Shown here in pieces: positions 346 through 34,176 of a DNA stretch of 64,000 nucleotides (positions are counted from its first letter, which is position 1; every line of letters begins with the position of its first letter). The DNA is from Tomocerus qinae (taxonomy: Eukaryota > Arthropoda > Collembola > Entomobryomorpha > Tomoceridae). A program made the translations under genes and the position numbers. The stretch covers positions 48,174,001-48,238,000 of the forward strand of contig CM034546.1 in NCBI GenBank assembly GCA_020055645.1, read 5' to 3'. The notes below the pieces were generated by a model. The model was not told the DNA's origin. It did no database searches and saw nothing but the letters and a program-made list of their open reading frames with translations.

Positions 346-2359
346 ATGAATTTAATAAAGTTATACAGGTTTTGTTTTTTATTTTTGTCTTCTGTTAAGA
401 CAATTACAGGCATCCGAAATTTGTCATTTTATAGAAATTGCGATTTTAATTTGGTAGTAGCTAAAAATTCTATCTGGGCGACGAGTTTTCTATTATCCAA
501 TCAAAATTCACAACCATGGACAGTGGCTTCATTCGACTACAACCCAGCACTACTCGCGCGGTCGATATCCTAGAAACCCACGAGATATATCTAATAATTT
601 CTGTAGTGTCAACATTCTCATCGAACCAAATGTCTGGCCTAAGCGTCTACTATCTGAGTGTTTTGGACAACAAGTCAATCGTCTCTCTTCTACATTCTTA
701 ATTGTCCACGAAAGAAGAAAACTGAATCCTCTTGATGAAAAGTGGCATATAGAAATCAGAAAGGAATTATCCACTCCATTTTTTACATTACTGATTGACA
801 ATGAGACACATCATTCAGTAATGACGGGGAGTTTGTACAAAGGAAGAAGATTCGTTGCAAATACAGAAATCGAAGGTGAAGATTGGGAAAGAGTTTGGTA
901 CTCTTTGAATAAAGATCTTTATGGCATCAAAATTGGAGCGGTTAATTCTTTCTTCTTTTCTAATTTCAAATTCAAGACCCTTGAGGATTATTGTAAAATT
1001 TCCGCCTATTCTGCAGTGAAAACAGGTTATAATATTTGTCCACACGAATTCAGAGCAGTAGAAGCAAAGGCCAATGCCTTAAATTTCACTGCACATCATG
1101 CATCACAGAATAACATGGATGATTTAATGTTATCAAACCCTTGTGGATATATTCAAATGCTGGAGAATCATGTATTGGTTTACAAATATTCATGTTATGT
1201 TAATCGTTTCATTGAATACTTTGAGGAGACAATCCCTTATTATTGCGAAGCATCACCGAATTTCACAGACGTTCACCTGTCGGTGTTAGTTCAGAATACA
1301 TTTGATGATTATTGCTGGTTCCTCATCTTCTCTCTTTTTCCACTCTCGTTTGTAATTTTAGTTTTCAGTTCGACGAATTTCTCAGCTAAGAAACTAGAAT
1401 GGATTTTGATCTCCTTGTCAGCTGTTCTTTTAGATCAGGGAATCGTTTATAACAGAAAAAGGAATCTGTTCTTGGTGGTAGCAACCACAGGATTTGTAAT
1501 CACTACTCTTTATCAAACTTGGATAACAAGTGAAATTATTGCACCACCAGACAAAAAAATATTCAAAGATTTCAAGGAACTCATTATGAATGATTACAAG
1601 TTACTACAGTTAAAAGACGACCGAATTAAATTGAATGAGAATAAATCTGACTTATTTGCTAAGTATAAAATGTTGGAAAAGATTAATTCGAGTACTTATG
1701 TATATGAAATAAAAACTGAAGGAAGATATGATACTAACCTATTGGCCTACAAAATGCTGACTAACTACTCCATGAAAATATTTACATTGGCAAGACGATT
1801 ACAAGTACATGGCAAATATATGGTGTCAGCAATACCAAAGTTAGTACCATCTGGCGGACAATGCATGACCACCAAGGAAATTGCAAGTTCAATCCCATAT
1901 TCTTATTTATTTCTTGGATGCTCTCGACACAAATTCTTAGAGTATTTCAACATAATGCAGGAAAAAGGATTTTTAACTATTTGGAAGGAACAATATGAGC
2001 ATTTTGACTATCTGTCAGATAGAAAGTCCATTTCGAAAAAAGATTATGACGACAGTCAGCCTGTGGGAATCAACTTACAAATGAAAATTCATACGCTTTT
2101 ATTTCTGTGCGGATATTTATTGTTTGGGCTTTTCATATCATTTTGTCTTGAACTGCTTTGTGGTAAAATAATTCCTTCCTTTCCTATCCAAAATTATTAT
2201 CAATGTTTTTCTACTGGAATTCAAAATGTAATAAGCAAACTCAAATATTTAGGGACTGTGGTAATGAAATTATCCTGTGATAAATTGCAATTTCGAAAAA
2301 TTTCGAAATCAAGGGTCAATGAAGGTATACACGTTCGTATCCAGGAATTTCATCAATAA
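346..2359 (+). pseudogene. IR-like ligand-gated channel gene, single exon, one frameshift
   Basis: This is a divergent ionotropic-receptor-like membrane protein, probably chemosensory, close to the intact 669-aa gene at 14074-16083. Frame 1 runs from the ATG at 346 through a signal-peptide-like start to about 545 and stops at 573. The homologous reading continues one frame over from about 545 to the stop at 2359, with no further stops. The second part holds the extracellular ligand-binding region, a first membrane segment (CWFLIFSLFPLSFVILVF), a pore-like segment ending LLDQG, a second membrane segment leading into LYQTWITSEIIAPP, a long S2-like loop and a last membrane segment near 2090-2155. 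The span of 2014 bases is one base over a whole number of codons, so a single indel separates it from an open gene. It may be a young pseudogene or an assembly error. The IR-like call rests on the membrane layout. Confidence 0.75.
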
Positions 2360-3239: not shown

Positions 3240-3854
3240 ATGGCAAAAATTTCTGCAAACAAAAGATTGCAGCAAGACTTAAGAAAGATCATCCGAGATC
3301 CTCCTCCGGGAATTAGTGCTCATCCTTCGGAGGCAAATATTCTGGATTGGCGGGCAATTATATGTGGACCAGAGGACACTCCATTTGAAGGTGGGACTTT
3401 TCGGTTGAGATTGAAGTTTTCTCCCGAATACCCACAAGTAGCTCCAGTTGTTTGGTTCTACTCCAAAATGTTTCACCCGAATGTTTACAAAGATGGAAAG
3501 ATTTGTCTGGACATTCTGGAGGAGCAGGAGAAATGGCTACCTGACTATGACGTGTCTTCCGTCCTCTGCGCCATTCAATCTCTTCTCGGAGATCCTAATC
3601 CTAACTCTCCCGCCAACGGAGCTGCCAACGGCTTGTTCATCCGAGATGTGCCATTGTACGAGAAAACAGTCAGACAATTTGTAGCCATGTCCAACTCGGA
3701 AGAATTTGACGATGACGACATCAACTGCAATGAAATAGGAGACAAAGAAGAAGGCAGTGTTGAAGATATAGAGGCCAATATTGCGGCTTTAGATTTAAAT
3801 GAATATAATGAAGAAGAGAAAAGGGGCATTTTGGAGTTTTTAAAACTGGCTTGA
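3240..3854 (+). CDS. Rad6/UBE2A-like ubiquitin-conjugating enzyme E2, single exon
   Basis: A ubiquitin-conjugating enzyme that would take an activated modifier from an E1 as a cysteine thioester and pass it to a substrate with an E3. The UBC fold covers residues 1 to about 155. It shows the N-terminal helix, the YPQVAP loop, the HPN motif at 79-81, the catalytic cysteine at 89 in GKICLDIL, and the DPNPNSPAN segment, all typical of the Rad6/UBE2A/B group. Compared with Rad6 there is a two-residue insertion after the active site (EEQEKW), many core substitutions, and an acidic C-terminal extension (about 160-204) ending EEEKRGILEFLKLA. The protein has 204 residues where UBE2A has about 150. The absence of introns suggests an old retrocopy. 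It is the first gene of a ubiquitin-related cluster. The E2 identity is secure; its modifier partner is unknown. Confidence 0.92.
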   Translation: MAKISANKRLQQDLRKIIRDPPPGISAHPSEANILDWRAIICGPEDTPFEGGTFRLRLKFSPEYPQVAPVVWFYSKMFHPNVYKDGKICLDILEEQEKWLPDYDVSSVLCAIQSLLGDPNPNSPANGAANGLFIRDVPLYEKTVRQFVAMSNSEEFDDDDINCNEIGDKEEGSVEDIEANIAALDLNEYNEEEKRGILEFLKLA

Positions 3855-5564
3855 TTACCAATATACAATTCATTATCTTTATAAGGTCGCCCTGCATATA
3901 TAATCAAATGCAAGTGGAAGTAAGGCAGCCGCTGCACAAAAAAGGGCAGATTTAAAGTAATTAGTTTCAGCAGGATTCATTTCAGAATTAAATATGCCTG
4001 TGTTTTAGACAAAAATGGTAAAAACTGTACTGGATTTATTCCTGAGTCATCTTTGATACCTGGGTATGAATTTTATTGAGCTCAACTCAATGAAAATAGA
4101 AATAGTAGGAAGTCTAGTACTTACTTGGGTGCAGGGTGCAGGTCAGTCTTAATTCGAAATAATATAAGATAATATGTAGTTATTATAAGTAGATTATAAA
4201 TTATTTTCCTAATTTTAAGTGTGTGGAAACAGTCTTGATAATCTAGCAACCGGAGCCGAAACCAGTGAACAACTTTCAGGGATAGAGGACTCCAGAATAA
4301 AGTTAAAAATAGTTTTTTTCCGAGCAAATAAATAAATTTTTATGAATTTTATGATTTGTTCGTGACGATAATAAAATGACAAACGTGATTTGATTTTCTC
4401 AATCCGACTAATTTTAATTAAGCATTAAAAATTCAAGCCTTCCTCTAAGTCTGAACATTTGCGGTGTGTACATAACAAAACCATTTACCTTAAACGTACC
4501 AAACAAAGGCCTACTATCTAACTATTAAATACATTGCCAGAACTCTGGCTTGTCTGGCTATATTATTTATTATGCAGAGGTGTGTTATACACAGTATACT
4601 AGATTAATTTGTCTGTACATTATATAAATATTTCGTTTTGTTCCATAATAACGCCGTGTAATATTCCACTGTCCATTTCGCGGTAATTTTTATGGAAGAG
4701 ACTGTCAATGGTGTTTATTAAACAGATAAGGAAGCATTAGTTATCTGTTTACGGACAGCAAGCATAAGTGGTCGATTAATGTACTGACACTGACTCATCA
4801 ACATGAATATCAATTTGACTTTCCAAGGTTTCGAATGGGGAACGTAATATATTATGCCACTACATTATTTCCCTGTACTTTTATTTATCATTTTCAACTT
4901 TCCAATGTTCCAATTATTCCTACAATATTAGACATGACATGCCTTGCACATCCGAAATTTTCGTGGAGAAAATAAACTATAAGCCTCATCACTCATTCAG
5001 TTGTCAAGCTTTTGGTTGTATGTGTTGTTGGTGCTTGGAAAATGATTTTGATACATATTATGTTTTATTTCTGCCCGAAAAGGGTTTCTGGACAGAAATT
5101 GCCCTCCCCCGTGATTTTTGAAAACATTATTTTTTTGAAAAATTATATAATACCTACTTGTTGTGAGAGATAAATTTATGGCTAAGCAAACACCCATGGT
5201 TTTTTGAGTACGTCTAATTTATTTTTCGGAAAACATATTTTTTTCGGTGAATTAAATCTGGTGCCATAAAAATATTCTTTTATTTGACAAACATTGTACC
5301 TTGTTAATAATGAAAATTCGCAGGTTCCGCAGTTTGTGTATACATTAAACTGCACACAGGACGTGACGTGTGACTGTGACGTTGAGTTAACTTTTTCATG
5401 AAGACCCATCATTTAGACGGCCATAGCCTTTGTTGAGAAAAAAGGGTTGTAATGATATCTAATGATCAATTTTGCTGTATAGACATCTTGTTGTATTAAT
5501 TGTATTGTTTGTTCAGCCTGCATAAACTTCGATGTTTATCTGATTCAAATTTACGGAACTAAAA
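3855..5564. other. Intergenic, nothing recognised
   Basis: About 1.7 kb between the E2 gene and the RBR ligase gene. Only short open frames without domain signals are present on either strand. No inverted repeats or target duplications were noticed. Confidence 0.5.
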
Positions 5565-7804
5565 ATGTCTTGTTCATCTTGCAAGATAAATGTTGAAGAA
5601 GTTGGATGCGGAGGATCCACTTCCAATTGTAACCATTTGTTTTGCTCGTAAGTTGTTTGTATACTAATTTCTTTAGATTTTTGATTGTAACCTTTTATTG
5701 GATATTAACGATTTTATCATGAATACTATGTCAATAAAGTCGGCTACTTATTTTCAGCCCTTGCATTGAGAACAAAGTGAAAATCGGTACGATTGTTGAT
5801 GGTGAAATTGGATGCTCAATTGAATACCCCGATGGCTCTATTTGTCGAGGTTACTTCACCATCAAAGAAATTAAATCTGTAAGTAACCTCAGTTACAATT
5901 TTAAGTAAAATAACTAGACAATCAAATATTTAATAGGAAGCTTAATATTTTGCTTGTATTAAACTTTTTATTTGTCCTCTAAGTTAATAGACGAAAAAGT
6001 ATTTGAAAACTTCTGTTCACTGCCAAACAACGAAAAGATTATTGACAGCGAGGAGGAAGACAGTGATGAAGATGAACAAGAAGGAGAAGACTCAGATAGT
6101 GCAATTAAAATCAATGTTATTTTACTTACGAAACAATACTTACGCAATATTATTTTGTAATAATGCCGAAATGCATTTCCCTTATAGGAGGAGGATATCC
6201 CAGGTGGCCTTGTCGAGAGGCATGTTCCGGAGGAACAGCTGTTGTTATCGTTTGAAGAGAAGAACACTTCTTGGGGTCAGTTAGCTCAAAAGATAAAGGA
6301 ATTGATGGATTCGGGGTCTTCTTATGCTCAAGCGACAGAGATTATTGACAAGATACCCGTCTGGGTTACTAATCAAGAGATTTCGTGTATAATTTGCAGT
6401 GAAGAGAAAGTCCCGGTGAGACAAGGAATAATACTTAAAGACTGTCTCCACGCATTCTGCAGGTTTGAATTATAATGAAGAAAGTATGTGTGAGAAATTG
6501 CACGTTGCTTGTTTTGTCCTTTGTTTTGACCTGTTAACAGATTCGTTAAAAATTTTCTAAATCACCCTGACATTAATAATTTTTATCCCCGATTTCATTA
6601 TGACCGCTTTTTTGTAAAGCTTATCGGAAGAATATTATTGATAATTGGCAAATCTCTACTGAATTATAATTTTATAAAACGAAAAGATATTCATTATAAT
6701 GTATATTTTGAATTTACTCCAGAACTTGTCTTGGAACTCATATTAAATACGCGGATACTTCGGTGGAGGTCGGATGTCCATTTGTCGAAGGCGACTACAA
6801 ATGTGACTCAGTTCTAAAGCCAAAAGAACTTAAACTCGTAAGCCTTTTAACAATTTTGTTTGTAATTTTGTGTTTTATTTATTTTTAGCTGTGACTTATA
6901 TAACCATAGGCTCTGACTATTTTAATCCCAATAGTTATCATCTGAAGCAGAGTACAAGAAGCATTACGAAGACCTTTCCATAAGGGAGTTGGAGTCACTT
7001 CCCAATGTATACAATTGCCGAACTCCTAATTGTGGATACAAATGCATTGTTGATCAAGACGAGTTTGGGGCTTCGGCTGTCAAGTTTAGATGTCCTAAGT
7101 GCAGGAAAAACAATTGCACAATATGCAAGGTGATTTGATTATGTCTACACTACGATATACATCAACGTCAAACTTATTATTATCGCTGTTACGTTTACGA
7201 GTTGGTTAAACAAGTATTCAACGGACAAACAAAATTTTCAAGTATAATACTGATTGCAATTTACAAAAATTCTAATTTCATGAAGGTAATTCACGAGAAG
7301 GGATGCCAAGAATATTGGCAACGTATTGAAGATGAGGAAAAGGAAAGGATACGTTTGGCTAATGAACTGATGATGCGAGAAGAAAAGGAAAAAAGAGATC
7401 GATTGAATAAACTGGAACAAGAACGACTGGAGCGTGTTAGCGAGGCTGAAATACAAGTAACTTAAGAATTCCATTATAGTATTTTCTATTTAAAACATTT
7501 TTTAAGTTGCCAACAAAAATTACCCCAGAAAATTTTGTTCTAATATAATTCTTGACTGCAGAAAATCTTATTGATATAAAATACAATAAGGTTCTGGTGC
7601 ATTTCAAAATAATAACATTAATTATGACTTTTATTTATATAGGCGGGCCTTAACAGTGGAATTTACGAGAAATGTCCTAACTGCGCCTACTTGTGTCACA
7701 AATACACTGGCTGCAATCACGTTGTATGCTCTAAATGCAAACATAAGTTTAACTGGGGAGGACAGCCATCTGGAATATTGGGATTATTTGGTATTGGTCG
7801 ATGA
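5565..7804 (+). CDS. HOIL-1-like RBR E3 ubiquitin ligase, 8 exons, 417 aa
   Basis: Exons: 5565-5647, 5758-5878, 5984-6115, 6188-6462, 6723-6837, 6935-7129, 7286-7456, 7643-7804. All introns can be read as GT-AG and phases match; the donor at 6116 is weak. RING1 has C179, C182, C198, H200, C203, C206, C222 and C231. The IBR has C270, C275, C295, C298, C303, C306, H310 and C314, followed by a charged helix (about 315-362) as in HOIL-1. RING2 has C375, C378, C388, C393 and C396; C393 (GCNHVVC) lines up with the catalytic cysteine of RBR ligases. RING1 (CLHAFCRTC) and the sequence after the IBR (IHEKGCQEYW) resemble HOIL-1/RBCK1 most. The UBL and NZF domains of vertebrate HOIL-1 are absent. Instead residues 3-57 form an extra RING-like module (C3, C6, C15, C22, H24, C27, C30, C47, C57), followed by an acidic linker. 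It would transfer a modifier through C393. The gene is convergent with the CYLD-like gene. Confidence 0.88.
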
Positions 7805-7948
7805 AGCTAAATATTATTTTAATTTTGTCGATCTACCGATAAAAATTCGATAATTGAAAAGTTTTTAAACAATAAATTTATGATTGCAATTATTACAATT
7901 ATTCACAACTCTTCCATGATTGGCATTATTAAAAATTAGACAACGAAT

Positions 7949-10900
7949 TCAAATATAAATGCAAATGTAGGCGGTGGACATTAAATGCTGTGCAAATTCA
8001 TTTCTGCTCTTCAAATATCGTTCCAGTTTGAATTCATTGTGCTGTGAAATTTTCATTTTTAAGTCTTCCAAAAAATCCGTTAGATCGGGAACGTGGACCA
8101 CCTATATACATAAATCAAGATATTTATCAATTACTACAGCTAAACGAACAATAAATGTATTGTTCGTTATTTTAACAAAGTGTTAGCAACGTTAGAAAAT
8201 AAACATTTTGGTTCATTTTTAGGTGTAGGAAATCAAGAGGGGGTTTATCTTAACAATTTTGAACCCTTCACTAGCTTAATTTTTAACCTTTGGACTCATT
8301 TTTGTTGGATTCGAATCATAAAAGCACCAATTATTTCCAGCCTTGACGAAACAAGTAAAATGGCTGTCCTTTAGACAGATGACGGAAAACAAATCCATGG
8401 AGGTCCTACCTGTTGAGTACATATTCAATTTAATTATTAAAAATTAACACAAATTACGGGAAATGGAATTGGAAGTAGAAAATGACATTTCACCCCGATC
8501 TGGACGTTTGAGAATGTGTCCCAGGTCTAGTTTTAATTCTGGAAGGATGTATTTGCAGTTCATAAGTTTCCCTCCGCAAACAGGTAACTTTATTACAAAT
8601 CCTGGATGGGGAACATCTTCTAGTTGAACTTGGGATGTGTTAAAACTTTCGTTGACCATCTGCTGTAAAAGGTTGACCTCTTTGAACGTCGGCTTCTCTT
8701 CATATTGGGACAACATAATCTGATGGATGTAATCACTGTAGTCCTTGTCATATCGGAAAAATCCTGGGACACCGAGAATTGTTTCGAAGAGGCAGAGCAT
8801 GAAATCTTCAACATCTATATAAAAAGAAACAAGATTATGAAAATAAAAATATAGATTCTATATTCATAATTAGTTAGAATATTCGTTGATAAAATGCAAT
8901 GAAAATTAATTTTGAGAGCGAGAACTTGACCACATTTGATTATAAGCCTATGAAAATCAAACGAAACGGGGACCTGAGGTCCTTCATGACCTTCTTGGGC
9001 AGCAAAAATGACTTTTTTATTGTTTAATTTTCAAATAATCGGTAAAAATCAAAATAATAATTTAGGTAATCACGGCTAAATGTGAATTGACCCAGCATAA
9101 TCTAAAATAAAGCATGATAACGAATAGATACGTTTTTGTGACAAAGGAATGTGTCAATTCTTCATTCTGAGTTGTTTATAATTCACAATTTTGTTTTTAG
9201 AATTAAATTTGGCTATCAAAATTAACTTGGCACTTACCCATATGATTTTTTTCAAATTCTGGATTTACTTTACTCATTTCCCTGCGCAAACGGAAGATGT
9301 TTTCTTTAGGAACATAAAAATCTTTTCTCAATGGACCAATTATTAATTGTTTGAGGACATGGACTGTGTTCATGAGAATTAATTCTTCGTTGCTATCAGC
9401 AGCAGAAGCTTCATCCTTTAATTTATGATTGACTTTTACAATAGAATCAAAAACATCCGTAAAAGCAAAAAGTGCAAATAGCGTAGTGTCAGCATAACAG
9501 GAATTATTCCATCCCTGGAATCCCCACCTTTCTACAGAAAAAAATACACAATTTACATTGGCTATTGCCAATCCGTTTAGTAATTGGGACAAAGAATGAA
9601 TATACGAAAAAGTGGTATAAGTCTCCACACAAACGAAGGTATGGAAGTCAAAATTGGAGACTACTATCTCGAAAAGAAGGTGGCCAACTTATGGAGTACA
9701 CAACTGATTTAGTTAAAATTTAATACCTGAATATTCTAAACGAACTGCTGCTGTGGAGTGAAATTGACATGGAGGTGGGATCTCGGTAAAATCCTCGTTT
9801 GAAACCTCTGGCATTTTTTCGTCATTTTGTTCTTCGTCTTCCTCATTTTGTTCTTCGTCTTGGCCATTTTGTTCTGATGTTCGCAATATGTTAAACATAT
9901 TTTCATATTTTAAATCATCCACAGAAATAAGCAAGCGGTCGTTTTCTTTGCAATCACGAGAACTGCAATACACGGTGTGGATAACCTTAAATCTGCCACT
10001 AAATCCTACAGATGACCCCTACATATGCAAAAAGTGATAAAGCGTTTGCAAGAACTTGTAATATTATTGATATCGAACATTTTTGAATGCACACACATAT
10101 ATATAGTCTGCTTAACATTACAATGTGACATACCAAATTATCATGACCGCTACATAGTTAAAAACCATGTGGTAAGTCACAAAAGTATTTTTTTCACATT
10201 GTCATTGTCGTGGTCATATTAAAATGATTTGTTACTTTGTAGCGGCCATGATAATTTTGTTGTGTCAATTGTAATGTTAAGCAGACGATATACCGTCTGC
10301 TTAATATTACAACGTAACAAACCAAATTATCATGGCTGCTACAAAGTAACAAGCCATATTGTATCATAACAAACCTAAGTCCTGATACAATGGTTTGTTA
10401 TATTGTCGCAGTCATGATAAAATGGATTGTTACTTAGTAATGTTAAGCAGACGATATGCCTCTCAACAAATTGTAAGTAAAACCCAAATAAAAATCTTAC
10501 AAAACGTATTTCAGCGTAAACCTCTCCTTGCAGGTACGGATAGTTTTTGATTCCAGCATTTCCAACCCACAAGATTTCACCGATAATGGGTTCTGGGTCT
10601 TCCTGTCGTCGATACACCACAGTACATGCAGTAGTAATACTATCATCTATATAGAAAAATTACAATGAAATGTGGTAGGTTAACAATTTGCAATTGTTTT
10701 CTACTTTAAACTAATATTATTATTCATCATCATTGAGTCCATCAAATCAGCTAAAATCGAATTCAGTTACGAAGAATATAAAAAAGCGTACGTTTCAAAT
10801 CACATTTGTTTTCAACACAGCAGGTAGCAAAAAATGTTTTGCGTTGGTATTCGTAGTAATTTTCTCCGTATCTACTATTTTCAGTCGTGTGAGCATTCCC

Positions 10901-12266
10901 TCGTCTCTTGTCACCATAAGTAACTATTTTCCACTCATTATCATAAGTTTTATCTTTAGTACTGTGTCTATAGTTAGATTGTCCATTTACTTTCGGCCCC
11001 ATTGTACTCTCTTTAGCTAAACCTTCTGCTGTACCTGTTTATATATACAATAAACCTCATACCCATTATTAACATTAAGATCTGTAAATGCTCTGTGTGG
11101 TTGTACAAGTTAAAACTAAATTTCTGAAAATGTGTACAAACCTTGACAATGGTTAAGATTCTTAATTACATTATCTCGCATTGCTTGTTCTGGGCCAGGA
11201 GGCATTTGAAATTTCATTAAGTATTCTTCCAATTCTATTAGTTCTTCATACGGAATACAATAGCGGAACAGAATTCCTTTGTCTTTGCAACACACACGTG
11301 CAATGAAGTAGTCATTAAAGTCGCGTGCTGGGATTTGCTGATCCACCTGTAAAAATAAATGCTTTATAACTATTCAAATTATTAATTATCGTTTTTCCGT
11401 CCTGTTCCCGTTGACGAAATTAAATTTTTCTTAATAAATAAAATTGCTTACAAAGTCAACACAAACTCGAACGGTGGATTTTTTTAATAGTAGATCTATA
11501 CGATAAGCGAAGTACGCTACAGTGCCAATTGGGTTTGTCTCTTGGTTGGAAGATTTATTCCAGAATACATCGCACCCTAACTCAAGGCTTCTATCAATGC
11601 CGTCACCACATTGAAATTTCAAGGTAAATTTTGATTTTGTTGTTTCGTATTCCGATCCCTGAAAACGAAGTATTGTAGGTATGTCTGTTGAGGGCTTGAT
11701 GAAATCTGTAAACGCATCATTTCGGGTATTTCTTTGGGCAGGTTTGACATCGGTGAGTATATGCAGGAAGTTGATTGGTATTCGTATTCTATCATCGTCT
11801 CCAGTAATCGTATTCCAGAACTTTGAAAATATTCCAGTCTTCTTTTTTGATTTTTCCTAATTTTTATTACAAAAATATTATTCCACATCTTTATAGACTA
11901 AAAAAGGTTCTGATAGTCATATATTTCGAAGAGAACAGAAAGCTGTAGAGCGCCCCGGAAATCAAAGAAAACAACAAGCAATTTGTTTAAAATGCAAAAT
12001 TTTTATATTCGAATGAACAGTCATTTTATGGCATCGTTTAATATTTCCCCTTTGATCAAATTTTGTGTTCTATGATTGAATCTATGATTCTGGTTTAAGG
12101 TACAAACTGACTGATTGTAAATGCTGTATATTTTACTTACCAATTGAATCACAGCAATTATTGTTTTATTTCTTGCTTCGGCGATGCCTTTAATGACACC
12201 AATGCTGTCATGTCCGTTATGTCTAAAAGCAACAGGTTGGTTTATTAATTTTAAGGCTTCCTCCAT
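7949..12266 (-). CDS. CYLD-like deubiquitinase, 10 exons, 721 aa
   Basis: Exons on the minus strand: 12266-12141, 11658-11452, 11346-11142, 11034-10771 (or ending 10792), 10646-10501, 10018-9727, 9531-9238, 8814-8458, 8409-8288, 8101-7949. They sum to 722 codons and every junction keeps phase. A CAP-Gly-like segment spans exons 5-6 (GEILWVGNAG to GFSGRFK, residues about 288-330), followed by an acidic Q/E/N-rich stretch. The USP domain has the Cys box GFQGWNNSCYADTTLF (C425) and the His box MDLFSVICLKDSHFTCFVK (H646), with Asp near 661 (FYDSNP). These match CYLD, which removes Met1- and Lys63-linked ubiquitin chains. The C-terminal exon (AYICIYI) also matches the CYLD end. The B-box zinc insertion that CYLD carries before the His box is missing. 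The protein is shorter than human CYLD (about 950 aa). The N-terminal 200 residues are hard to assign. Confidence 0.88.
10105..10287. mobile_element. Palindromic MITE copy 1 in a CYLD-like intron
   Basis: The ends form inverted repeats, gtctgcttaacattacaa on the left and its complement ttgtaatgttaagcagac on the right. The inner parts (accaaattatcatgac / gccatgataattttgt) are also complementary, so the element can fold nearly end to end. It lies in the intron 10019-10500. The target duplication is not clear in the AT-rich flank. Confidence 0.7.
10294..10453. mobile_element. Palindromic MITE copy 2, directly after copy 1
   Basis: Same terminal repeats (cgtctgcttaatattacaa left, gtaatgttaagcagacg right) and related interior as the copy ending at 10287, with only six bases between them. 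Two members of one foldback family therefore sit side by side in one intron, and the second has lost part of its interior. Confidence 0.7.
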
Positions 12267-13170
12267 TTTCCCTTTAGCCGCCTATCTAATTAATTACTGG
12301 TCTCCTTCCACTTTCAGGACTCCTTTTGATATTTGCAAGATAGTTTATTTGTAGTGAATCGTATTTATTTTTGTCGTTGCCAAAGTCAAATCGCCCAAGC
12401 CATATCTAATCATTGCTATCGGCCGTTTGATAAATACAGTACGTTGAAATAATATTATAAGCTCAAATAAATTACCATGTTCAATAAATAATGCACGCAG
12501 CAAATGCAACATAATATCATAGTTAATATTATTCGTGAGTTCAACTCAATACAGAGCTGTGCACATTTCATATTTATTTATACATACATTACATACATAG
12601 GTATGAATAATAAAATAAACTTATACGCTCAAATGGCTGTAAAAAAGGTAGCATTTTGTTCTCCAATGTATGAGTAGAAATGGAAAAAAAGTCAAGATGT
12701 GGGTAGACTTACTATTAGAAAAATTCTGCCTATCTGTACTTACAATGCGATATTAAATTAATAAAATGTAGTAGTAATTAGATATGCACTTCGCAATTTA
12801 ATTGGGAAACAATCCACAAAAAAGAGACGATATGTATACAACTGTATAATATAATTGTATAAAACTTCAAACAGTTATATAGGATTTATTAACGCGTTGA
12901 AGTGCAACCCTGACTTCTATGGCGTTTGTATGCTTACACCGAGAGTCGACTAATTCCCTGATGAATCATCATTCATCATGCAGATAACAAACATTCTGCA
13001 ATTAAGAGTTATCTTTATTGAGTACATACTCTGCTGATGTAATCAGTAATTGCGGTGGCAATTCTTGAAATCCTTGCTTTGAAATATACTTTTGTTGCTC
13101 TAGAATTTGAAATTTCACCGTTTGTTACCAATTATTCTGAATACCTTAGTTATTTTATTTTCAGTTCAAA
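12267..13170. other. Intergenic region between CYLD-like and ubiquitin-like genes
   Basis: About 900 bases separating the two divergent start codons (minus-strand gene at 12266, plus-strand gene at 13171). It should contain both promoters. No TATA box at a standard distance was certain. A short tacatacat run lies near 12590. Confidence 0.5.
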
Positions 13171-13527
13171 ATGGAGTCTAAAGAGGATGCTAGGAAATTT
13201 GTTAATGTGAGAACTTTGGATGGAAAGACTGATAAAATCCCCGTGTTCCCCGACTGGACAGTTCAACGACTCAAAGAGGAGTTTGGCAAATACCGAGGAC
13301 AAGACTTTTCAAAAATAAATATGCACTACAAAGCCAAAAGATTAAACGACAGAGCTCTGTTAAGCACATACAACATCGAACCAGGTAAAGAGTCATGTAA
13401 ATTCTGTTTGAGATTGTGGAATCATTTAATAAATTATAATATTTATTATTTAGATGGATTTGTTCAAGCAAACATTAGAAGTCTCGGAGGAATGTCACCT
13501 CAGTCACCTGCCTGTACCCCCCAATAA
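13171..13527 (+). CDS. Ubiquitin-like protein with C-terminal Gly-Gly plus tail, 2 exons, 95 aa
   Basis: Exons 13171-13384 and 13454-13527. The spliced product has a ubiquitin fold at residues 8-84 (VRTLDGKT near the start, LNDRALLSTYNIEP in the second half) ending in IRSLGG, followed by an 11-residue tail. The layout matches ubiquitin-family precursors that a protease trims to expose Gly-Gly. R80 corresponds to Arg72 of ubiquitin, K56 to Lys48 and K19 to Lys11. Lys63 is replaced by Pro71, and an 8-residue N-terminal extension replaces Met1. The Ile44 patch is not kept: positions matching Ile44 and Val70 are His52 and Asn78. The 69-base intron is a multiple of three and has no stop, so retention would give a 118-aa form. 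The poly(A) signal aataaa at 13523-13528 overlaps the stop codon. That it is a conjugated modifier is inference. Confidence 0.85.
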   Translation: MESKEDARKFVNVRTLDGKTDKIPVFPDWTVQRLKEEFGKYRGQDFSKINMHYKAKRLNDRALLSTYNIEPGKESCKFCLRLWNHLINYNIYYLDGFVQANIRSLGGMSPQSPACTPQ

Positions 13528-14073: not shown

Positions 14074-16083
14074 TTATTTCATAAAAGGTGTTACCTTCGT
14101 GTAGGATTTCCTTCGATACCATTCCACCATTGTGTAACAGATGCTTCGACATTTTATTATACCATGAAATAATGAGAGCAACCTGCTCTCTAAGTATCTA
14201 AGTGTGTTTATCGTTGTTTGAATTGCAGAAAAGAAACATTGGAGACAATTTTGAATAGAAAATGATGTTTTATGACAAAACAGTTCCAGAAGGAATGAGA
14301 GGAGAATGCCAAAAGATAAATATGCACACAAAATAAAAATAGTTTTTATTTTCATCTGTAGATTGATAGCCACAGGCTGACTCTCTTCAGCCATTAGGTT
14401 TAAGTACGATCGTTTAGATGATTCAAACGCAAAGTAGATATTTTGTTCTTTCCAAAATATTAAAAGCCCTTTTTCTAGCATCCTTTGGAAAAACATTTGG
14501 AAATTATGACGATTACATCCGTCAAATAAATGAGAACGCGAGCTTGTTTCCACAATACTTTTGGTCATTACACAATGCCCATTAGTTGTCCTTTTTGGGA
14601 TACTTGCCACGTAATATTGTCCCGATTGTGTAGAAATAAGTTGAAATATTTTCAAGGAATAATTAGTTACTAATTTCGTCACAATTTCAGTACTGTCATA
14701 ATCTAAATAATCTTCAGTAGAAGGTTTTTCGATTTGCACGTCATAAATGTAAACACTTAAGTTCATTTTATCCAACATTTTGTGTCTAACAAATAAGTCA
14801 GTTCTGTTGTCATCCATCCCAATGCGACTGTCTTTTCTCCACAGTAGTTTATAGTTGTTGTCGACGAGTTCCGTGAAGTCATTGAATATTTTCTTGTCTG
14901 GAGGTGCAACTATTTCGCTGGTTATCCACGTTTGATAGAGAGTTGTAATTGCGAATCCCGTGGTTGCTACTACCACAAATAGACTTTTCTTTCTGTTATA
15001 AACAACTCCCTGATCTAAAAGAATAGCTGCCAAGGAAATCAAAATCCAACCTAAATTCTTCGTAGTGGAATCCGTCGTTCCATAAACTAAAATTACAAAT
15101 GAGAGTGGAAAAAGAGAGAAGATAAGGAGCCAACATGGGCCATCAAATGTATTCTGAATCAACACTGACAATTTTACATCTTGGAAATTCGGAGATGGTT
15201 CGCAGTAGAAAGGGACCATATCGTAAAAGCGTTCAATGATTATCTTTCTGTACCAAATGTAATTGCCAAATGCTTTCTCTATTTGAATCATTCCACAAAA
15301 TTTTCCAAAATGTTCTCTTTCTAAAATTTCTTCATGTCTAGCATAAATGGCAGTAAAATTTAATTTGTCGGCCATAGCTTCAACAACTCTGAGTGAAGAG
15401 TAACATTGTACTTGGCCTTTTCTAATCGACGAGTAAACCGAATCTTTGCATTCTGGCGCTGAAGAAGCTGAAGATGAATACCAACGATCATAAATTACTC
15501 CGATCCCAATACCATGCAGATGTCCATTTAAAGATTGCCACACTCTTTCCCAATTTTCATCTACAATTTCTGTATCTGCTACGAAATGTAATTGTTTGTA
15601 AAGATGGCCAGTGTATACTGAAATTTCAGTCGAATGTTTAATCACCAATACAAAAAGTGGACTGGCCAACTCAAATCTGAAAGATGGTGACAATGGTCGA
15701 TGAGGGTGAAATTTATTTTCCCACACAATTATAAATGTAGACGTGAGGCGACTTATTTCTCTACCGACAATCGGGCTAAGAGCGATAGGCAAGATGTACA
15801 CGTGTGGTTCCATCAAAATATTGACGCTGCACAAACTCTTAGACAGATCCCGTGTCTTGTAATAATGTCGATTGAAACGGCTTAAGTCATAAGGGAAAGA
15901 CATCACAGTCCAAGTCTGTAGATGCTGATTAGACAAAAGAAATGATGTCGGCCAAACAGAACCAGGAAATATAATCATGTTAAAATTGCAATTTCTGTAA
16001 ACCGACAGATATCGAAATCCGTTGGCTATCCCAAACAAAATCATAAAAGACGAAAAGAAATTGCAAATTAATTTGGAATCCAT
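14074..16083 (-). CDS. IR-like ligand-gated channel, single exon, 669 aa
   Basis: An intact membrane protein with the layout of ionotropic receptors. It has a hydrophobic signal-like start (about 5-20), an extracellular region to about 315, a first membrane segment (about 317-335, CWLLIFSLFPLSFVILVYG), a pore-like segment (about 346-360), a second membrane segment (about 367-390) running into LYQTWITSEIVAPPDKKIFNDF, an S2-like loop to about 578, and a last membrane segment (about 580-600). The motif Y..W.TSE.VAPP followed by F.ELV corresponds to the helix after the pore in iGluR/IR proteins. It is a close paralog of the broken gene at 346-2359 and points towards it. Such single-exon IR-like genes form large chemosensory families in springtails and other arthropods. 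The ligand cannot be told. Confidence 0.8.
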   Translation of the reverse strand: MDSKLICNFFSSFMILFGIANGFRYLSVYRNCNFNMIIFPGSVWPTSFLLSNQHLQTWTVMSFPYDLSRFNRHYYKTRDLSKSLCSVNILMEPHVYILPIALSPIVGREISRLTSTFIIVWENKFHPHRPLSPSFRFELASPLFVLVIKHSTEISVYTGHLYKQLHFVADTEIVDENWERVWQSLNGHLHGIGIGVIYDRWYSSSASSAPECKDSVYSSIRKGQVQCYSSLRVVEAMADKLNFTAIYARHEEILEREHFGKFCGMIQIEKAFGNYIWYRKIIIERFYDMVPFYCEPSPNFQDVKLSVLIQNTFDGPCWLLIFSLFPLSFVILVYGTTDSTTKNLGWILISLAAILLDQGVVYNRKKSLFVVVATTGFAITTLYQTWITSEIVAPPDKKIFNDFTELVDNNYKLLWRKDSRIGMDDNRTDLFVRHKMLDKMNLSVYIYDVQIEKPSTEDYLDYDSTEIVTKLVTNYSLKIFQLISTQSGQYYVASIPKRTTNGHCVMTKSIVETSSRSHLFDGCNRHNFQMFFQRMLEKGLLIFWKEQNIYFAFESSKRSYLNLMAEESQPVAINLQMKIKTIFILCAYLSFGILLSFLLELFCHKTSFSIQNCLQCFFSAIQTTINTLRYLESRLLSLFHGIIKCRSICYTMVEWYRRKSYTKVTPFMK

Positions 16084-17388
16084 TTTTTTGTGTTTGGATC
16101 AAATGTAAATGTACTAGGGCAAAGTAGACGGTGGATTGGAATAACTTGTTTTCTCTAGCAATGAACGATGAATGAAAAGCCTGTTTTGGTTGTTCTGCTG
16201 TCCACAGTAACCAATTCTAAACACAATTCCTATAGACTTACACCATGAAGCACAAAAGCGATCCTCCACTTTAAGTACTTGGGTGGACTATCAAGTTCTG
16301 AAATCTCTGAAATCTGAAAACAATGGATTTTGATATTTAAAATATAAATATCAAATTCAAATAGCATAGCAAATAATTTCAGTTTAGGAGTTTATTTGAC
16401 TCCACTACGCTTTAAAAAAATTTCTAATCGTCATTCTCAAAGTGGGACGGGACAGAAACACCTATCAAGGTAATTATTTTGCTGGTGATATCAAAGGATT
16501 TATCACCCAAGCTAACGATCACGTCAGTATAATTCTATACAAAATATTCATGCTCTATAGCGCACAAAATACTCAGAATCTCTCTTGGTATTTGGTACGT
16601 AAGTAGATCAAAGGTGTCCACAAAACATAGTCACGACAAACTCTTCCAGGTAATCTACCCAATAAAAGTCAGGGTTTGTCATTTTATAAGCACTTTTTAA
16701 TTCTGCTTTGACATTGCTTAAAGTTAGATTGAGATGACATTGACGTATTGTTTCTACTGGGAAATTTTAGCAGTTCTCATAGACCAGGGTTGATGGTCAG
16801 ATTTTTATACGTGTTGGAATGTTTTGATTGACACAAAATCCGACCTACCTACCTCACTTATACATAGGGCTTTTCTACCAGGTTACGATGACGATAGTGT
16901 GCCTGTGCCTTCAACGTAAGTAAAATCTAGATATATAAAATACAGTAATTTCCTTGTACCAATTCTATTAAAAAATGTAATTTTTAATAAAAAAATATTA
17001 AAACATGAAAATAAAATTCTGACCAGTTGCAGCCTAGCTGCCTTCACTATTTATATGATAACAATAAATATTTGTTGTCACTAAAGTAAAACAGTTGACG
17101 GTTTTAAAGCAAGAAATGGATGTAGTCTCAGAAATTGTCATTAGAAATTTGTCTAACAGAATAAAAAAACAAATCTCATTCATTTTTCCTCAATTTTATT
17201 GCGAAGAAGGCTTTATTGCCATCGGAGAAGGAATTATTACGTTAACATTAGGTAATCACACTACCATCATAATTACCACATCGCCAGGGCCACATGAGAC
17301 TACTGAGAATCATGTGAAAATTCTGTGAATGCTTAATTGTGTAATAAAATATGATTATGACAATCTTTTTTTACAAGGCTTGATAACA
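16084..17388. other. Intergenic, nothing recognised
   Basis: Upstream region of the minus-strand IR-like gene. A 77-codon open frame at 17095-17328 has no domain signal and is not called a gene. No repeat structure was noticed. Confidence 0.45.
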
Positions 17389-17773: not shown

Positions 17774-18094
17774 CAATTATGACATTTTCCCCTTTATTTA
17801 GTCGTTTAAATATATGTTGCTGTATACGCATTTAGTAAATAGTATGGCATTGACTCATAGATAGGCATTGCCGGTAGATAAGCCAAATGATAACATTTTG
17901 TATTTGACATATTATGCCACAGTTCCAAAGTCGTATTAATATTCAACGAAGAAAAAGTTTCAAATCGCATTTAACAGCATTTTAGTGTCTAATAAAACCC
18001 AATTAAAAGATTAACTGTAACTTCATGACGAATAAAAGAATTTTCCAAATTTAGTAAACTATATTTGTATTTTCACCTTTAAAGTGGCAATAGA
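17774..18094. other. Intergenic leader of the CARD-kinase gene
   Basis: About 320 bases between the MITE and the ATG at 18095. It presumably holds the promoter. No distinct core element was recognised. Confidence 0.4.
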
Positions 18095-21000
18095 ATGTCA
18101 GACTACGTGAGCCGTAGGGCCGAGGAATACAGAAAAGAAATACAACTGAATAATTGGAATCAGGAACATTTCAAACATTCCATTAACACTTTAATTCCCC
18201 ATTTGGTTGAAGGTACTACTGAAGCGTGTCTGTCGACTTTATGTCTTCATATGTTATCTACACAAAATTTAATAACGAATGATATAGAGTGCATTGTAAG
18301 TCACTTTTAATTATCCCGTCGTCGCTTATTTGAATATTAAAAAAACGATTGTTTATAGGATGTTGGCTTTAAACCCGTATATAATAAATATAGAATTCAG
18401 AACGGACATTGTTTAAAAGAAATACAAGATTTTACACAACTTTTTCGACAAAATCTATTGAAGACGTTTTACCATTCTTACTTTCTGTACTGGAAGAAAA
18501 TGCAGCTGGAAACTTGGCAAAGCAAATGCTGAACATCTTCCGAGGACCGGGTAATAATTTATTTTGTATTTTAAGAATTAATAGTCTCTTAACGATATAG
18601 GAAAAGCCTCCATCCACTTTCATATTGATCGTAGAAAAGCCAATATCCATTTTTTTGTTTGGTACAGGGAGACATTCTTATTTCAAAAACTTTTTCTTGA
18701 AAAATGAAATATTTGAAATAAATGAATTAAATACAATGCGCTATGTACACGCATGCGCATTTATTGCAATTATTGAAATTTTTGAAATAATTGCAATATA
18801 CTGCATTTATTAATTTTATTTCAAATATTTCATTTGTCAAGGAAAGTGAGGGCAATTTGAAATTCGAAACTTGACTGTGATGACTACTTGTGTAACTAAT
18901 GTGACTACTGACTACCAACAAAACCTATTAGGTGCCAATATATTTCCATAAAGTAGCAACTCGGTACCCAATGATAAGCATAATTTTAATAAATAGTGTA
19001 TTGCTACATACTATGTGCATATTCAATTGATATTTGACAATTTCAAAAATGACAATTGTAGTTGAAATATTTTTGCTCGCATGGTTACCAATTTTATAAA
19101 GAAAACATTGAACTGTTTGTGATACCTGAAAAGAAAGATAGTGAAAGACAATTCAGAAATTGTATTTAAACGAAAATTTGCATTATCTCGTTGGCGTCCC
19201 CCTCAGATTTGCATGAAAGCTTTCAACGAAGATAAATATTTAATGCTAGGGAAGATTTAGAAAGATTTAGAGTGGAACAATCAAAATAAAAATTTTTATA
19301 AATATTTTAGTAGAAGAAAGGCATACTTATAAACATTTTGGGGTACTGTGAGACTCGATGCTTAAACTTTGCCCTTGAGGATTCTAGTAGTTACTACCAA
19401 CAGAAGCGGAAAAGCAGGGCAAAAAGACAACCAAAAAGGCAAAGGGGAACCCTTTTGCCTTTTATTGGTTATTTTTAATGGTTAAATACATTGGGTCAGG
19501 GCAAGGCAAGGTAATAGAATTATAAAAAAGATAGAAGGGACTTTCAGTATCTGTCTGTGTTATAGCCAAAGAGGTTCTAATAATATTAAGGAAATAGAGT
19601 TAAAGTGAAGAATATTTTCTTTATAACATTGATGAAGAGCTCCGCCGTAAAACGGCGCGAAAATTTACCGATACCTACTAATGCATAATCGAAGACAATA
19701 GGGATTGATTTTTGTACCATTGAAAAGCATTACGGGTCTGGCTCTACAGTTTATAACCTCTTTAGTTATATATTTTTCATCGTGTGCCTTGTTTTAACCT
19801 TGTAAGAATTTACAAGGATGTAAAAGTAGGGCCCGCAGGCGCGGGAATATGAATATCTGCAATTCCCATCACAAATATTAATATCCCCGCGTCTGTGGGC
19901 TATACCTTAACCTCATGGTTTATACTTTCAAGGATAAAACAAAGTCTTATGTGCTGGTTTATTATGTGCTGGAGCGTGTCTTCTCTATTCCTACTATCTT
20001 ATCTCCATTGGCAAGGTTAAGTCAGACAAAGTTAAAGATCGTAGGAAAAATCCGCCTCAGTACGTTATTTACCATCCCAGAACAACAATATCTTCGTTAC
20101 TATTGTACATGCATTGGGCATCGTTTATTTACAGGTACTGATAACTTTGTCATTGAGCGTTGGAGTTACACAACAAATGAAGTGCTGGGTAGCGGATCTT
20201 TTGGAGGGGTTATTTCTGCAACAGACACTATTGATAATCTGATTTACGCTATGAAACTCATTCCAAATCGAAAAGTTCGCTTTGGGGACACTGATGATAT
20301 ATTACGAGAGGTGAGGAATCAAGCAAAACTTGATCATCTGAATGTGGTCAAGTACAAATCATCTGAAAAATTTTCATTATCTAGTAGTCATATTTAGGAA
20401 ATACTTCAATGGAATAGCACCAACAAAATTTCAACCTACACGCGTGAGTTTTTCGAAGCTTCTTTTCATTCTGCTAATAATGGAATAGTTACTGGTTTTG
20501 TCATAAAAATGGAACTTTGTGGTGAAACTTTGAGAGAACCTTTGCATCAGAACAATCAACCAATAATGTCTGAATGCAAAGAAATTGGACAGGCAATAGC
20601 CGACGGTTTATTTTACATACATAACCAAGGGCTAATTCATAGAGACTTGAGACCTGATAATATTTATTTTTCGAAAAAATACTTTGTTAATCCCGTCAAA
20701 ATTGGAGACTTTGGCCTATCAATTTCTAGCAAAATCTACGAGGATCAAACAATGTCAATAGCAGTATGGAACACACAATATCGAGCACCTGAAATGGAGG
20801 AAGAATATAAGGGTGGCAAGGCAAAATATGGTCAACACGCAGATTTATTCTCATTTGGACTAATTTTATCTGAAATCTTTGACCCTACAAGGGAAATCAA
20901 TTTGACAAAGAAATTTGCGGAAATTAAATATTTAAGAAAAACTGGCAAAAGACTTCAAGGTATATCGTGGTTGAATTCGTTGATACTGCAACTAACGGAA

Positions 21001-23330
21001 GAGGAACCAAACAAACGGACTGGAGTTGGAGACTCTGCTGCTGATGAAACACCTTTAAAACTTAGTTTTACATCTCAGGTAAGTTAAAAAAACTAATGGT
21101 TTAATGTATCAAAAATGAATACCTTCAATCAACACTTTTTTCATGGCAAGATTTGAAAATGATTCAAAATGAAAATGGTTAAAAAATAATATGAATTTGT
21201 ATTCCGTAATGTGTGCACACGCACAGTATCTTATACACCCCTTTTTAACATTTTTCTTTTCTTAAGGAAATTCCAATCAAATCTGATGATGATCACAAAA
21301 AAAGAATCAATCCAATTCATTTGGCTTTTGATGTGTACAAGGAATACACTAAAAGAAAGGCCAGTGGTGTTTTAAGTATCAAACATGTGGAAGTAGTACG
21401 AAGGAGCTCTGAAGGAGGCCGTTTGTTATTTACGGGAAGCAATACAAAATCATTCGATGTTAACATGGCGACGGTGGAGATAGAGGCTCAATTTCATGCA
21501 ATGGTTAAGGACTATTACCCAAATAGAGGAGACCCTAGCAAAAATAAAAAATGTACAAGAGTCTGTGAATAAGCAAACAAATGAAATTGAGACTGTGCAA
21601 CATTATAAATTGAATTCCGCTCGTTCAAGCGCTATTGAATCGTACGAGCGAAGGATGGCCATTGAACAAAAGGAAAAATCCATTGCAGTCCAGAAATCTC
21701 TAAAAGAAAACCATAGCGCAGATTTGGACCAAATCGATTTAGGCCATCTAGTTTACGAAGATTGTAAAATGGTAGTTCATGCAAAAGACCTTCAATCGGC
21801 TTTAGTCAATGATATATTATCTCAATTGATGGACAGAAGCAGCAATGAAAGGATGGAACAGACAATAAAACGGTTTGAAACCGCACTAAACACAGCTGTA
21901 CACCTTTATAATCAAGATTTAGAAAACATTGCAAATGAATTGCAACAGTCAGATTTTGCCATTTGGATAAGCGAGTTGGAGGAGAAAATTCGAAGTCAGT
22001 TTTTGGCTCAGTTCGAAAAGAAACCAAATGGTGCTTCAAAAGAATTTAAAAGAAAATTAAATTCAGTTCTTACTCAGCATAGCGCATCCATCGTTCAAAA
22101 ATTTGAGCAGCAAGGAAAGGCGAAAGATACGTATGTACTTTACAAGCATTAATAATAATTATTACAATAATTTTCCTTCTCTCTTGTATACGCGATCTTA
22201 AGATCCTATTCACCTTGTTCGAAGTATCTATTGGAATTTGGTATGAATTCGATCTATTTAAAGTAACTTGTATTGTAGAAATATGGATTTTGAGGTTTAA
22301 AATGTAACGTTGATAGTGTCAGTAGAAATTACTACGGTTTTTCCAAAATTTTAGTAATTAGTTATAATAATATATTTTATATTTCATGATCCTCAGGTAA
22401 AAAGGATTAGTTAATGAATGGTGGCCCAGAGAACTTTAATGAAACTTAATGTATGACCTGTAATTCAACGTTCTTTCTGGGCCACCCTGGACTATTCGTC
22501 CTTTAGGACAACTATACATCTCTATTTTGAATTACAGAAACCTGCATGAGAAAGAACTAAAACTATCTACTCCTGCACGTCGGATTCAGATCTTCGACAA
22601 AATTGTCAATTTATTTTCCGATTTCACTCTAGATATAGAATATGTTGCGAGTGACTTCAACGGTCATTACAAATGGACAACGTAAATGGCATTTATTTAT
22701 TTCATTAATCAGCAAAAAATGCATTACAATAAACTACTTATACATAATATTATTCGAATGTGACATAACTAATTACCAAAAATATTAAATTTAGTTTCTA
22801 TATCAATGGGCATGAGAGAGACGTGCCAATTTACCTTAAAGGAATAGGATTTGCAGGGAGACCATCAAAACGTACTGAGAAAATCACCATGAAAATTAAA
22901 ATAACTCAAGGTAAACCCGGTGAAAAATCTTTATCTGAAATGGAAACAAGTTATACTGCAATATCTAACAAAATGACAATGATTGATTTGAAAAAGTCAG
23001 TTAAAATTGCTCCTAACAAGCAACACTGGGTGTGCATCAGCTTAATTGTTGTAAGTAACAGCATTGAAGTTCTCGAAAGAGTAAAGTTTAATTCTTTAAT
23101 CTGAATCTGCATTACACATCAATTGAGTCATGTCAACATTTATACAAACCTAAATTAGAATGGATTAATGCTAATATGAATAATTTCAGGGTGGCCTGGC
23201 CCAATGGAAAAATTTGAACAGAGATATCATTTTGTACAATAAAATGGATGGCCCCTCAAGACCAATCAATTTGACAGTCAACACTTCCTATAATTCTGTA
23301 TACTCTTTGAAATTTTCTCCCTTCGAGTAA
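18095..23330 (+). CDS. CARD-like domain, PKR-like kinase, coiled coil and PHR-like protein, about 861 aa
   Basis: Proposed exons: 18095-18295, 18394-18550, 20135-20351, 20418-21078, 21267-21473, 21529-22130, 22538-22681, 22795-23050, 23190-23330; phases match throughout. Residues 1-119 look like a CARD (LPFLLSVLEENAAGNLAKQML). The kinase has P-loop GSGSFGG (138-144), Lys160, HRDLRPDN (Asp268; Arg replaces the usual Lys270), DFG (289-291) and YRAPE, and most resembles the eIF2alpha-kinase/PKR group with an insert before VIKMELC. A charged helical region follows, then a beta-rich end (YLKGIGFAG to WVCISLIVGG) like the PHR domain of Highwire/BTBD proteins. Two steps are less sure: a TAG at 20395 needs the 66-bp intron 20352-20417 (or a 54-bp one), and a frame change near 21528 needs a 55-bp intron. 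Otherwise these are lesions. It would be a signalling kinase assembled through the death fold. Confidence 0.65.
18702..18835. repeat. Nested palindrome in the large CARD-kinase intron
   Basis: The arms aaatgaaatatttgaaataaa (left, one base trimmed in places) and tttatttcaaatatttcattt (right) are complementary. An inner pair tgcaattatt / aataattgca continues the fold. It resembles a foldback element or MITE remnant; no target duplication was found. Confidence 0.55.
19429..19470. repeat. Short hairpin in intron
   Basis: The segment accaaaaaggcaaagggg is followed three bases later by its near complement cccttttgccttttattggt. It is a strong stem-loop within the large intron 18551-20134. Its function is unknown. 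Confidence 0.5.
19831..19900. repeat. GC-rich inverted repeat in intron
   Basis: The arms gcccgcaggcgcgggaatat and atatccccgcgtctgtgggc match at about 16 of 20 positions. The GC-rich stem stands out from the AT-rich surroundings. It is probably a remnant of a foldback element. Confidence 0.5.
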
Positions 23331-33821: not shown

Positions 33822-34176
33822 ATGAATCATTAATTCATCTTCTAAAAATTCATTTTCCCAATGACCATGCTGATGGTAGCTACACTTCTGAATTTAATCA
33901 CGTTAGAATGAATCATTAATTCATCTTTTGGACCGTACAAAGCTATTTGTGACGGCCAATGACCATTCAAATGGCTAGGAGAGAATTATCTCGCTCATCT
34001 GTGCAAAATACTGAAAGCTAGTCTTGACTTTGGATATATTCCGCTCTAAACTGCAAAGTTAATCTTAGAAAAGGTCCAGAGGGCTATTAGCTAACTTTTG
34101 GCGACCTATATCACTTATATCTACTTGTATGAAAATACGGCGTCTTATGCCAGTTATGCTTGAAAACAAATGAAAG

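Follow-up and report, generated by a model that had tools for sequence, protein, structure and literature searches.

To our knowledge, ubiquitin-like modifiers that have a conjugating enzyme (E2) of their own are few and mostly ancient. The ISG15 system of vertebrates comprises UBA7, UBE2L6, HERC5 and USP18, and ISG15 itself has two ubiquitin-like (UBL) domains. In the accessible parts of the published accounts, ISG15 is termed vertebrate-specific (PMC9741609); CYLD is described as cleaving linear and K63 chains, and Drosophila as having HOIP and CYLD and lacking HOIL-1 (PMC5090701); and a Caldiarchaeum operon is described as encoding a modifier, an activating enzyme (E1), an E2 and a ligase (E3) together and as adjoined by a protease gene, its modifier having a nine-residue tail after the Gly-Gly (PMC5654768). 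Here we analyse a window of 64,000 nucleotides from the collembolan Tomocerus qinae (contig CM034546.1, hereafter C1; C1:48174001-48238000), part of a 334 Mb assembly of 115 contigs that was itself searched, in which four intact, adjacent genes encode a RAD6-derived E2, a HOIL-1-derived RBR ligase, a CYLD-like protease and a small ubiquitin-like protein (UBL). The HOIL-1- and CYLD-type genes by themselves point to an animal host. Among the titles and abstract beginnings within reach, no paper treats such a cluster in an animal, a weak negative with subscription papers lying outside that reach.

The cluster itself is confirmed. The rebuilt gene models contain 17 introns, all with GT-AG ends and consistent phases, and have no internal stops (Table 1). 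None of the five open reading frames (ORFs) of at least 70 amino acids in 3855-5560 has a Pfam match above its curated cut-off, and no ORF of that length is listed wholly inside 12282-13149. The original prediction that the four genes adjoin with no other gene between them is thus borne out, and so are, on the strength of conserved residues described below, its candidate E2 with an active cysteine at C89, its putative deubiquitinase with Cys, His and Asp, and its probable UBL with a processable Gly-Gly end. The operon-like grouping that it also proposed does not hold in the strict sense, because the CYLD-like gene lies on the minus strand and the cluster therefore uses both strands. The genome search for E1 gave no match in the window, no further relative of any cluster gene appeared in the 30 kb before the window (E up to 0.1), and a viral origin was set aside, viral_contigs having given, at the sensitivity applied, no confirmed relative for any of the four proteins. 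Our preferred reading, to which we give an even chance of being right, is that the four genes act in a single pathway and represent one copy of a ubiquitin-like modification module specific to this lineage.

Table 1. Coordinates of the cluster genes and of the tandem UBL-E2 pairs elsewhere in the genome (positions refer to the window unless C1 is given).
Feature	Position	Strand	Basis
RAD6-derived E2	3240-3854	+	Pfam UQ_con, PDB relatives, insertion and clade
HOIL-1-derived RBR E3 ligase	5565-7804	+	exon model, Pfam RING/IBR, RBCK1 best PDB relative
RBR exons	5565-5647, 5758-5878, 5984-6115, 6188-6462, 6723-6837, 6935-7129, 7286-7456, 7643-7804	+	
CYLD-like deubiquitinase	7949-12266	-	exon model, Pfam UCH, catalytic-domain alignment, residue positions
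UBL, 2 exons	13171-13527	+	splice model, PF00240
UBL exon 1	13171-13384	+	splice model, Pfam
UBL intron, 69 bases, in-frame, phase-1	13385-13453		same position and phase in three paralogues
UBL exon 2; RSLGG, then 11-residue tail	13454-13527	+	splice model, ubiquitin and paralogue alignments
UBL_b1	C1:36569805-36570118	-	
E2_b1	C1:36575174-36575644	+	
UBL_b2	C1:36576383-36576700	-	
E2_b2	C1:36578683-36579156	+	

The spliced UBL is a protein of 95 amino acids that matches PF00240 at 38.6 bits (E 8.9e-10; cut-off 25.4), above the 33.4 bits (E 3.8e-8) of the form read through the intron. It aligns with ubiquitin without gaps through the Gly-Gly, with 22 of 73 residues identical (30%), so that Gly83-Gly84 correspond to ubiquitin Gly75-Gly76 and are followed by an 11-residue tail; the unspliced reading puts the Gly-Gly some 20 residues too late. 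With a ubiquitin beta-grasp domain and a Gly-Gly at positions 75-76, it has the sequence features of a type I modifier, and it is far from near-identical to ubiquitin itself: K48 and R72 are kept, while the I44 patch is changed, with His at the position of I44 and Asn at that of V70. The intron-retained form was considered and rejected; its beta-5-like letters are also ubiquitin-like, yet Pfam favours the spliced form and the intron is common to three paralogues. Structure predictions for the retained UBL and the E2 (AlphaFold, without alignments) gave predicted local distance difference test (pLDDT) scores of 40 and 37 and were not used.

Searching the genome with the UBL gave five matches, namely the two window exons, two at C1:36.57 Mb and one at C1:72.325 Mb. 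The last was rejected both as a polyubiquitin and as a family member: this 281-amino-acid frame has a single ubiquitin domain, which is nearer to ubiquitin, its Gly-Gly is internal (LRLMGGG, then a long C-terminal part), and no E2 match was found near it in the 10 kb read. The family comprises four members (window, b1, b2 and c), all with a phase-1 intron at the same place (69, 68, 72 and 69 bases, respectively) and all with the Gly-Gly at ubiquitin position 76; two end directly after it, and the other two carry tails of 11 and 8 residues. Only 12 columns of the alignment are invariant, and the Gly-Gly makes up two of them. This shared intron bears on whether the models are partly wrong, or some copies pseudogenes, such that the cluster is less complete than it appears. 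The models were drawn from splice signals and homology rather than from transcripts, and the 69-base UBL intron is in frame, so that a retained form without a well-placed Gly-Gly could be made; against this stand the phase-consistent introns, the models free of internal stops and the position of the UBL intron, the same in four paralogues, and we consider such an error very improbable.

The E2 of the window is a single-exon protein of 204 amino acids with an HPN motif, a predicted catalytic cysteine (C89) and, by eye, an acidic C-terminal tail. It matches UQ_con (PF00179) at E 1.3e-43, and its PDB relatives are RAD6/UBE2A (E 1e-50). The genome search for E2s gave 43 matches including the window copy, and four others are RAD6-type, at 54-56% identity. 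The housekeeping RAD6 at C4:23.63 Mb is 85% identical to C. elegans UBC-1 and is likely the RAD6/UBE2A orthologue, whereas the window E2 is 57% identical to UBC-1 and 55% identical to the genome's own RAD6. Together with its separate grouping and an insertion of two residues directly following the active cysteine, present in all four E2s of its clade and missing from the housekeeping RAD6, this indicates that the window E2 is not the RAD6 orthologue, in keeping with the earlier claim that the cluster genes diverge from the housekeeping versions.

UBL genes and E2 genes of this clade occur as four pairs at three places in the genome: C1:48.18 Mb (the window), C1:36.57 Mb (two in tandem) and C1:6.23 Mb, where the end of UBL_c lies about 0.9 kb from E2_c. 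All four non-housekeeping RAD6-type E2s (at least 54% identity, window copy included) adjoin a UBL, and each of the four UBLs with the common intron and Gly-Gly lies beside an E2 of the one clade; near the housekeeping RAD6, no UBL match was found in the 30 kb read. Between the two tandem pairs, synonymous divergence (dS) is similar for the E2s (0.374) and the UBLs (0.319), as if each E2 and UBL had been copied as a unit. The ratio of non-synonymous to synonymous divergence (dN/dS) is 0.19 for the E2s and 0.65 for the UBLs, and therefore the E2 appears constrained and the UBL fast-changing. Two weak CYLD matches at C1:6.23 Mb (E 0.046) were rejected, one lying in a retroelement-like long frame (by eye) and the other just upstream of it. 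Taken together, a new family of putative Gly-Gly modifiers paired with an E2 clade of its own is well supported.

Linkage among the ubiquitin-machinery families (E2, E1, CYLD, UBL and RBR) is more than chance when compared with shuffles that place positions uniformly, irrespective of gene density. With the window left out, five cross-family pairs lie within 15 kb where 0.073 are expected, a number reached in none of 2000 shuffles; UBL_c, discovered beside its E2, is among those counted, and a single place supplies three of the five pairs. Counting by places, with the window and UBL_c both left out, two are seen within 15 kb against 0.11-0.12 expected (reached in 6 and 3 of 1000 shuffles under two settings) and three within 50 kb against 0.30-0.31 expected (4 of 1000 shuffles in both). 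These figures speak to a second alternative, namely that there is no dedicated pathway at all: the families are expanded, their members are accidental neighbours, the enzymes use ubiquitin, and the UBL either serves as a binding domain or is a gene in decay. The numerous E2 and CYLD-like matches (43 and 36), the dN/dS of 0.65 between UBL_b1 and UBL_b2, and the low identity of the window UBL to ubiquitin, with I44 replaced by His and V70 by Asn, would all fit that explanation. Yet the Gly-Gly is kept in all four UBLs despite so few invariant columns, the UBLs are paired with a single E2 clade, and the linkage exceeds that of the shuffles, so that we regard accidental neighbourhood as improbable.

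The RBR ligase, of eight exons and 417 amino acids, has RING (PF00097) and IBR (PF01485) matches that are both above cut-off; its domain order is extra N-terminal RING (amino acids 3-42; PF00097 21.8 bits, cut-off 21), RING1, IBR, RING2. Its best solved relative is RBCK1/HOIL-1 (E 7.5e-24); with the RBR region alone RBCK1 is found at 1e-21, and the next RBR among PDB chains is ARIH2 at 0.014, which is also nearest to the RING2 core. The protein thus combines a RING1-IBR-RING2 arrangement and a probable catalytic cysteine in RING2 with HOIL-1/RBCK1 similarity over RING1-IBR; the UBL and NZF domains, both part of HOIL-1, gave no Pfam match in it at E up to 1. In RING2, GCNH and FNWGG stand in place of the C-x-W active site and Zn2/Cys6 RING2 of HOIL-1. 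A ligase with an active-site cysteine had been predicted, and this part stands, but by homology the catalytic residue is probably C388 (GC388-N-H390), not C393 as had been proposed, which would instead coordinate zinc. The usual His is present in the window RBR (H390), whereas HOIL-1, according to the accessible text of the study, has W462 in its stead and acts through H510, its last residue (PMC9834252).

The only relatives of this ligase listed by the genome search form an array at C2:10.99-11.03 Mb. Reading 70 kb there (C2:10980001-11050000) revealed four RING2 motifs, two GCDW, one GCDA and one GCNHVVC, and no E2 or UBL match of note. A HOIL-1-like C-terminus is readable beside one GCDW copy. 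The GCNHVVC copy is followed by FNW and a quick stop, as in the window RBR; with the same short RING2 in an array paralogue, the loss of the second zinc site therefore marks a subfamily, not decay of the window copy alone.

The CYLD-like protease (10 exons, 768 amino acids) has a Pfam UCH match and can be aligned with the CYLD catalytic domain over residues 472-767 (E 2.3e-24), with Cys484, His694 and Asp709 as the predicted catalytic residues of a CYLD-type USP domain. CYLD typically has CAP-Gly domains and a B-box insert in the USP domain. Here no Pfam CAP-Gly match was found at E up to 1 (a CAP-Gly-like stretch at about amino acids 340-400 is seen by eye only), and the B-box insert is missing, the LDLGHILK strand being separated from the His box by only a few residues. 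By eye only, AT-rich stretches in repeated and inverted copies can be made out in the gene's largest intron (10040-10460) and may represent a small transposon. A genome search gave 36 CYLD-like hits, 10 in the window gene and 26 outside it, at sites that include C2:33.366-33.369, C1:54.27-54.55, C4:8.90-9.06, C1:91.2 and C1:97.45 Mb and two on C5.

Some of these hits lie beside other ubiquitin machinery. A second kind of ubiquitin-machinery cluster lies within 12 kb at C2:33357540-33369545 and comprises a UBE2D-like E2 (HAN for HPN), a divergent E1 of the UBA1 class and, on both strands, CYLD-like hits. A looser grouping spans some 380 kb at C1:54265929-54647362, with a divergent UBA1-class E1, many CYLD-like hits and three E2 matches, two of which carry HMN and HLN. 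The E1 search gave at least nine matches at three places, such match counts being lower bounds. The two divergent E1 pieces score 112 and 86.7 bits against the best E1 ubiquitin-activating enzyme, and 70.1 and 63.0 bits against the best UBA7, and are therefore assigned to the UBA1 class; the third E1 (C5:22.33 Mb) is, by eye, the housekeeping UBA1.

In the module as we propose it, the UBL would start as a precursor, lose the residues beyond Gly84, be charged by a UBA1-class E1 encoded elsewhere in the genome, which has one housekeeping-like and two divergent candidates, and passed to C89 of the RAD6-derived E2 as its dedicated partner. From there it would move to C388 of the HOIL-1-derived RBR ligase and on to a substrate, and the CYLD-like protease may trim the UBL tail, remove the tag, or both. 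That the UBL is conjugated, which E1 charges it, and that the RBR and CYLD-like enzymes serve it are points that we infer, the roles of the latter two being plausible and unproven; an immune role of the cluster, which had also been suggested, is a guess.

A number of observations weigh against this reading. Around the other UBL-E2 pairs, where 50 kb and 30 kb were read, tblastn and simple motif patterns applied to the unspliced frames detected neither RBR nor CYLD-like genes, and therefore the four-gene pathway in full is something that we infer. An IBR scan gave 17 matches, one being that of the window itself, and none is close to the E1/E2/CYLD clusters, a weak result in that the scan also missed the HOIL-1-like array. 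The window RBR has lost the second zinc site of RING2, albeit with a paralogue that shares the loss, and RAD6-type E2s, such as that of the window, are not the usual partners of RBR ligases. In the accessible accounts, HOIL-1 and RNF216 were studied with UbcH7, where a RAD6-type E2 stands here. The pair of UBL_c and E2_c is not an unbiased hit, this UBL having come to light only by reading the DNA beside its E2, and the constraint on the UBLs is weak, as judged from b1 and b2. The four divergent E2s group together in a tree of eight sequences with a support of 88/100, short of the starred threshold (95 and 80), and equally good clustering arises in 75 of 500 label shuffles; the insertion is for this reason the stronger sign of the clade. 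Finally, old neighbours that were duplicated together could yield linkage without shared function.

Another alternative is that only the UBL and the RAD6-derived E2 are a dedicated pair, the RBR and CYLD-like genes having been inserted by duplication and acting with ordinary ubiquitin. The recurrence of UBL-E2 pairs with no RBR or CYLD-like genes found nearby, the location of the RBR relatives in an array of their own and the size and dispersal of the CYLD-like family (26 of 36 hits outside the window) agree with this. On the other hand, the RBR and CYLD-like genes sit exactly between the UBL and the E2, with no other gene recognised, and linkage of CYLD-like to E1 and E2 genes is also seen at C2:33.36 Mb and, in a less tight form, at C1:54.3-54.6 Mb. 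We judge this narrower explanation rather unlikely. The dedicated pathway with its own modifier that was originally predicted therefore holds in part: the pairing of UBL and E2 recurs at three places, while RBR and CYLD-like genes were not found in the DNA read around the other pairs.

Outside the cluster, two long, paralogous receptor-like frames that are 48% identical bracket it in opposite orientation (461-2359, plus strand, and 14074-16098, minus strand); they have no Pfam match and are ionotropic-receptor-like by eye only. Further along on the plus strand are a kinase gene (18083-23330) with an N-terminal helical part and a PHR-like domain (PF08005, which at E 0.0001 narrowly misses its cut-off), in which a one-base frame break seems present near 18.43 kb (by eye); frames of a long interspersed nuclear element (LINE)-type retrotransposon (32565-36201) with endonuclease and reverse transcriptase recognised by eye; and a frame (50546-52540) with a GTPase domain, for which MMR_HSR1 is above cut-off and AIG1, at 25.8 bits, just under its cut-off of 27.

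Beyond the window, we suggest, tentatively and with more doubt than for the module itself, that this lineage evolved ubiquitin-like conjugation systems of its own as clustered cassettes of two types, one of UBL and RAD6-derived E2, with RBR and CYLD-like genes in the window, and the other of divergent E1, UBE2D-like E2 without the HPN proline and CYLD-like protease. Such cassettes would be an independently arisen animal counterpart of ISG15, in gene clusters that resemble the ubiquitin operons of bacteria and archaea. If so, a lineage-specific modifier still linked to its E2, and perhaps to its ligase and protease, would show the birth of a modifier system from duplicated ubiquitin genes; the gene order would directly yield testable enzyme-substrate pairs; and the clustering of such functions, known in archaea and bacteria, could arise in an animal genome.

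Each of the known systems shares some features with the locus. Like RAD6/UBE2A, the window E2 has a UBC domain, HPN and catalytic Cys, at 55% identity to the RAD6 of the same genome, and it differs in its insertion, its acidic tail and its UBL partner gene. The likeness to ISG15 lies in a C-terminal Gly-Gly modifier, an E2 and an E3 that descend from ubiquitin enzymes and a protease of the USP family that removes the tag; here, in contrast, there is a single UBL domain (one PF00240 stretch), the E2 derives from RAD6 and the RBR from HOIL-1, and the genes are neighbours. With the linear ubiquitin chain assembly complex (LUBAC; HOIL-1, HOIP, CYLD), the locus shares a HOIL-1-type RBR and a CYLD-type protease, placed side by side, whereas no UBL or NZF part was found in the window RBR, which also lacks the W462 and Zn2Cys6 RING2 of HOIL-1, and a RAD6-type E2 is present. 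The archaeal set, as described for Caldiarchaeum, has an E1 and an Rpn11 metalloenzyme protease, whereas the animal genes lie on two strands, three of them spliced, their protease is a cysteine enzyme and the cluster lacks an E1. What the two have in common, on that description, is a short-tailed Gly-Gly modifier, an E2 and a RING-type E3 encoded together, and a protease gene that adjoins them on the other strand.

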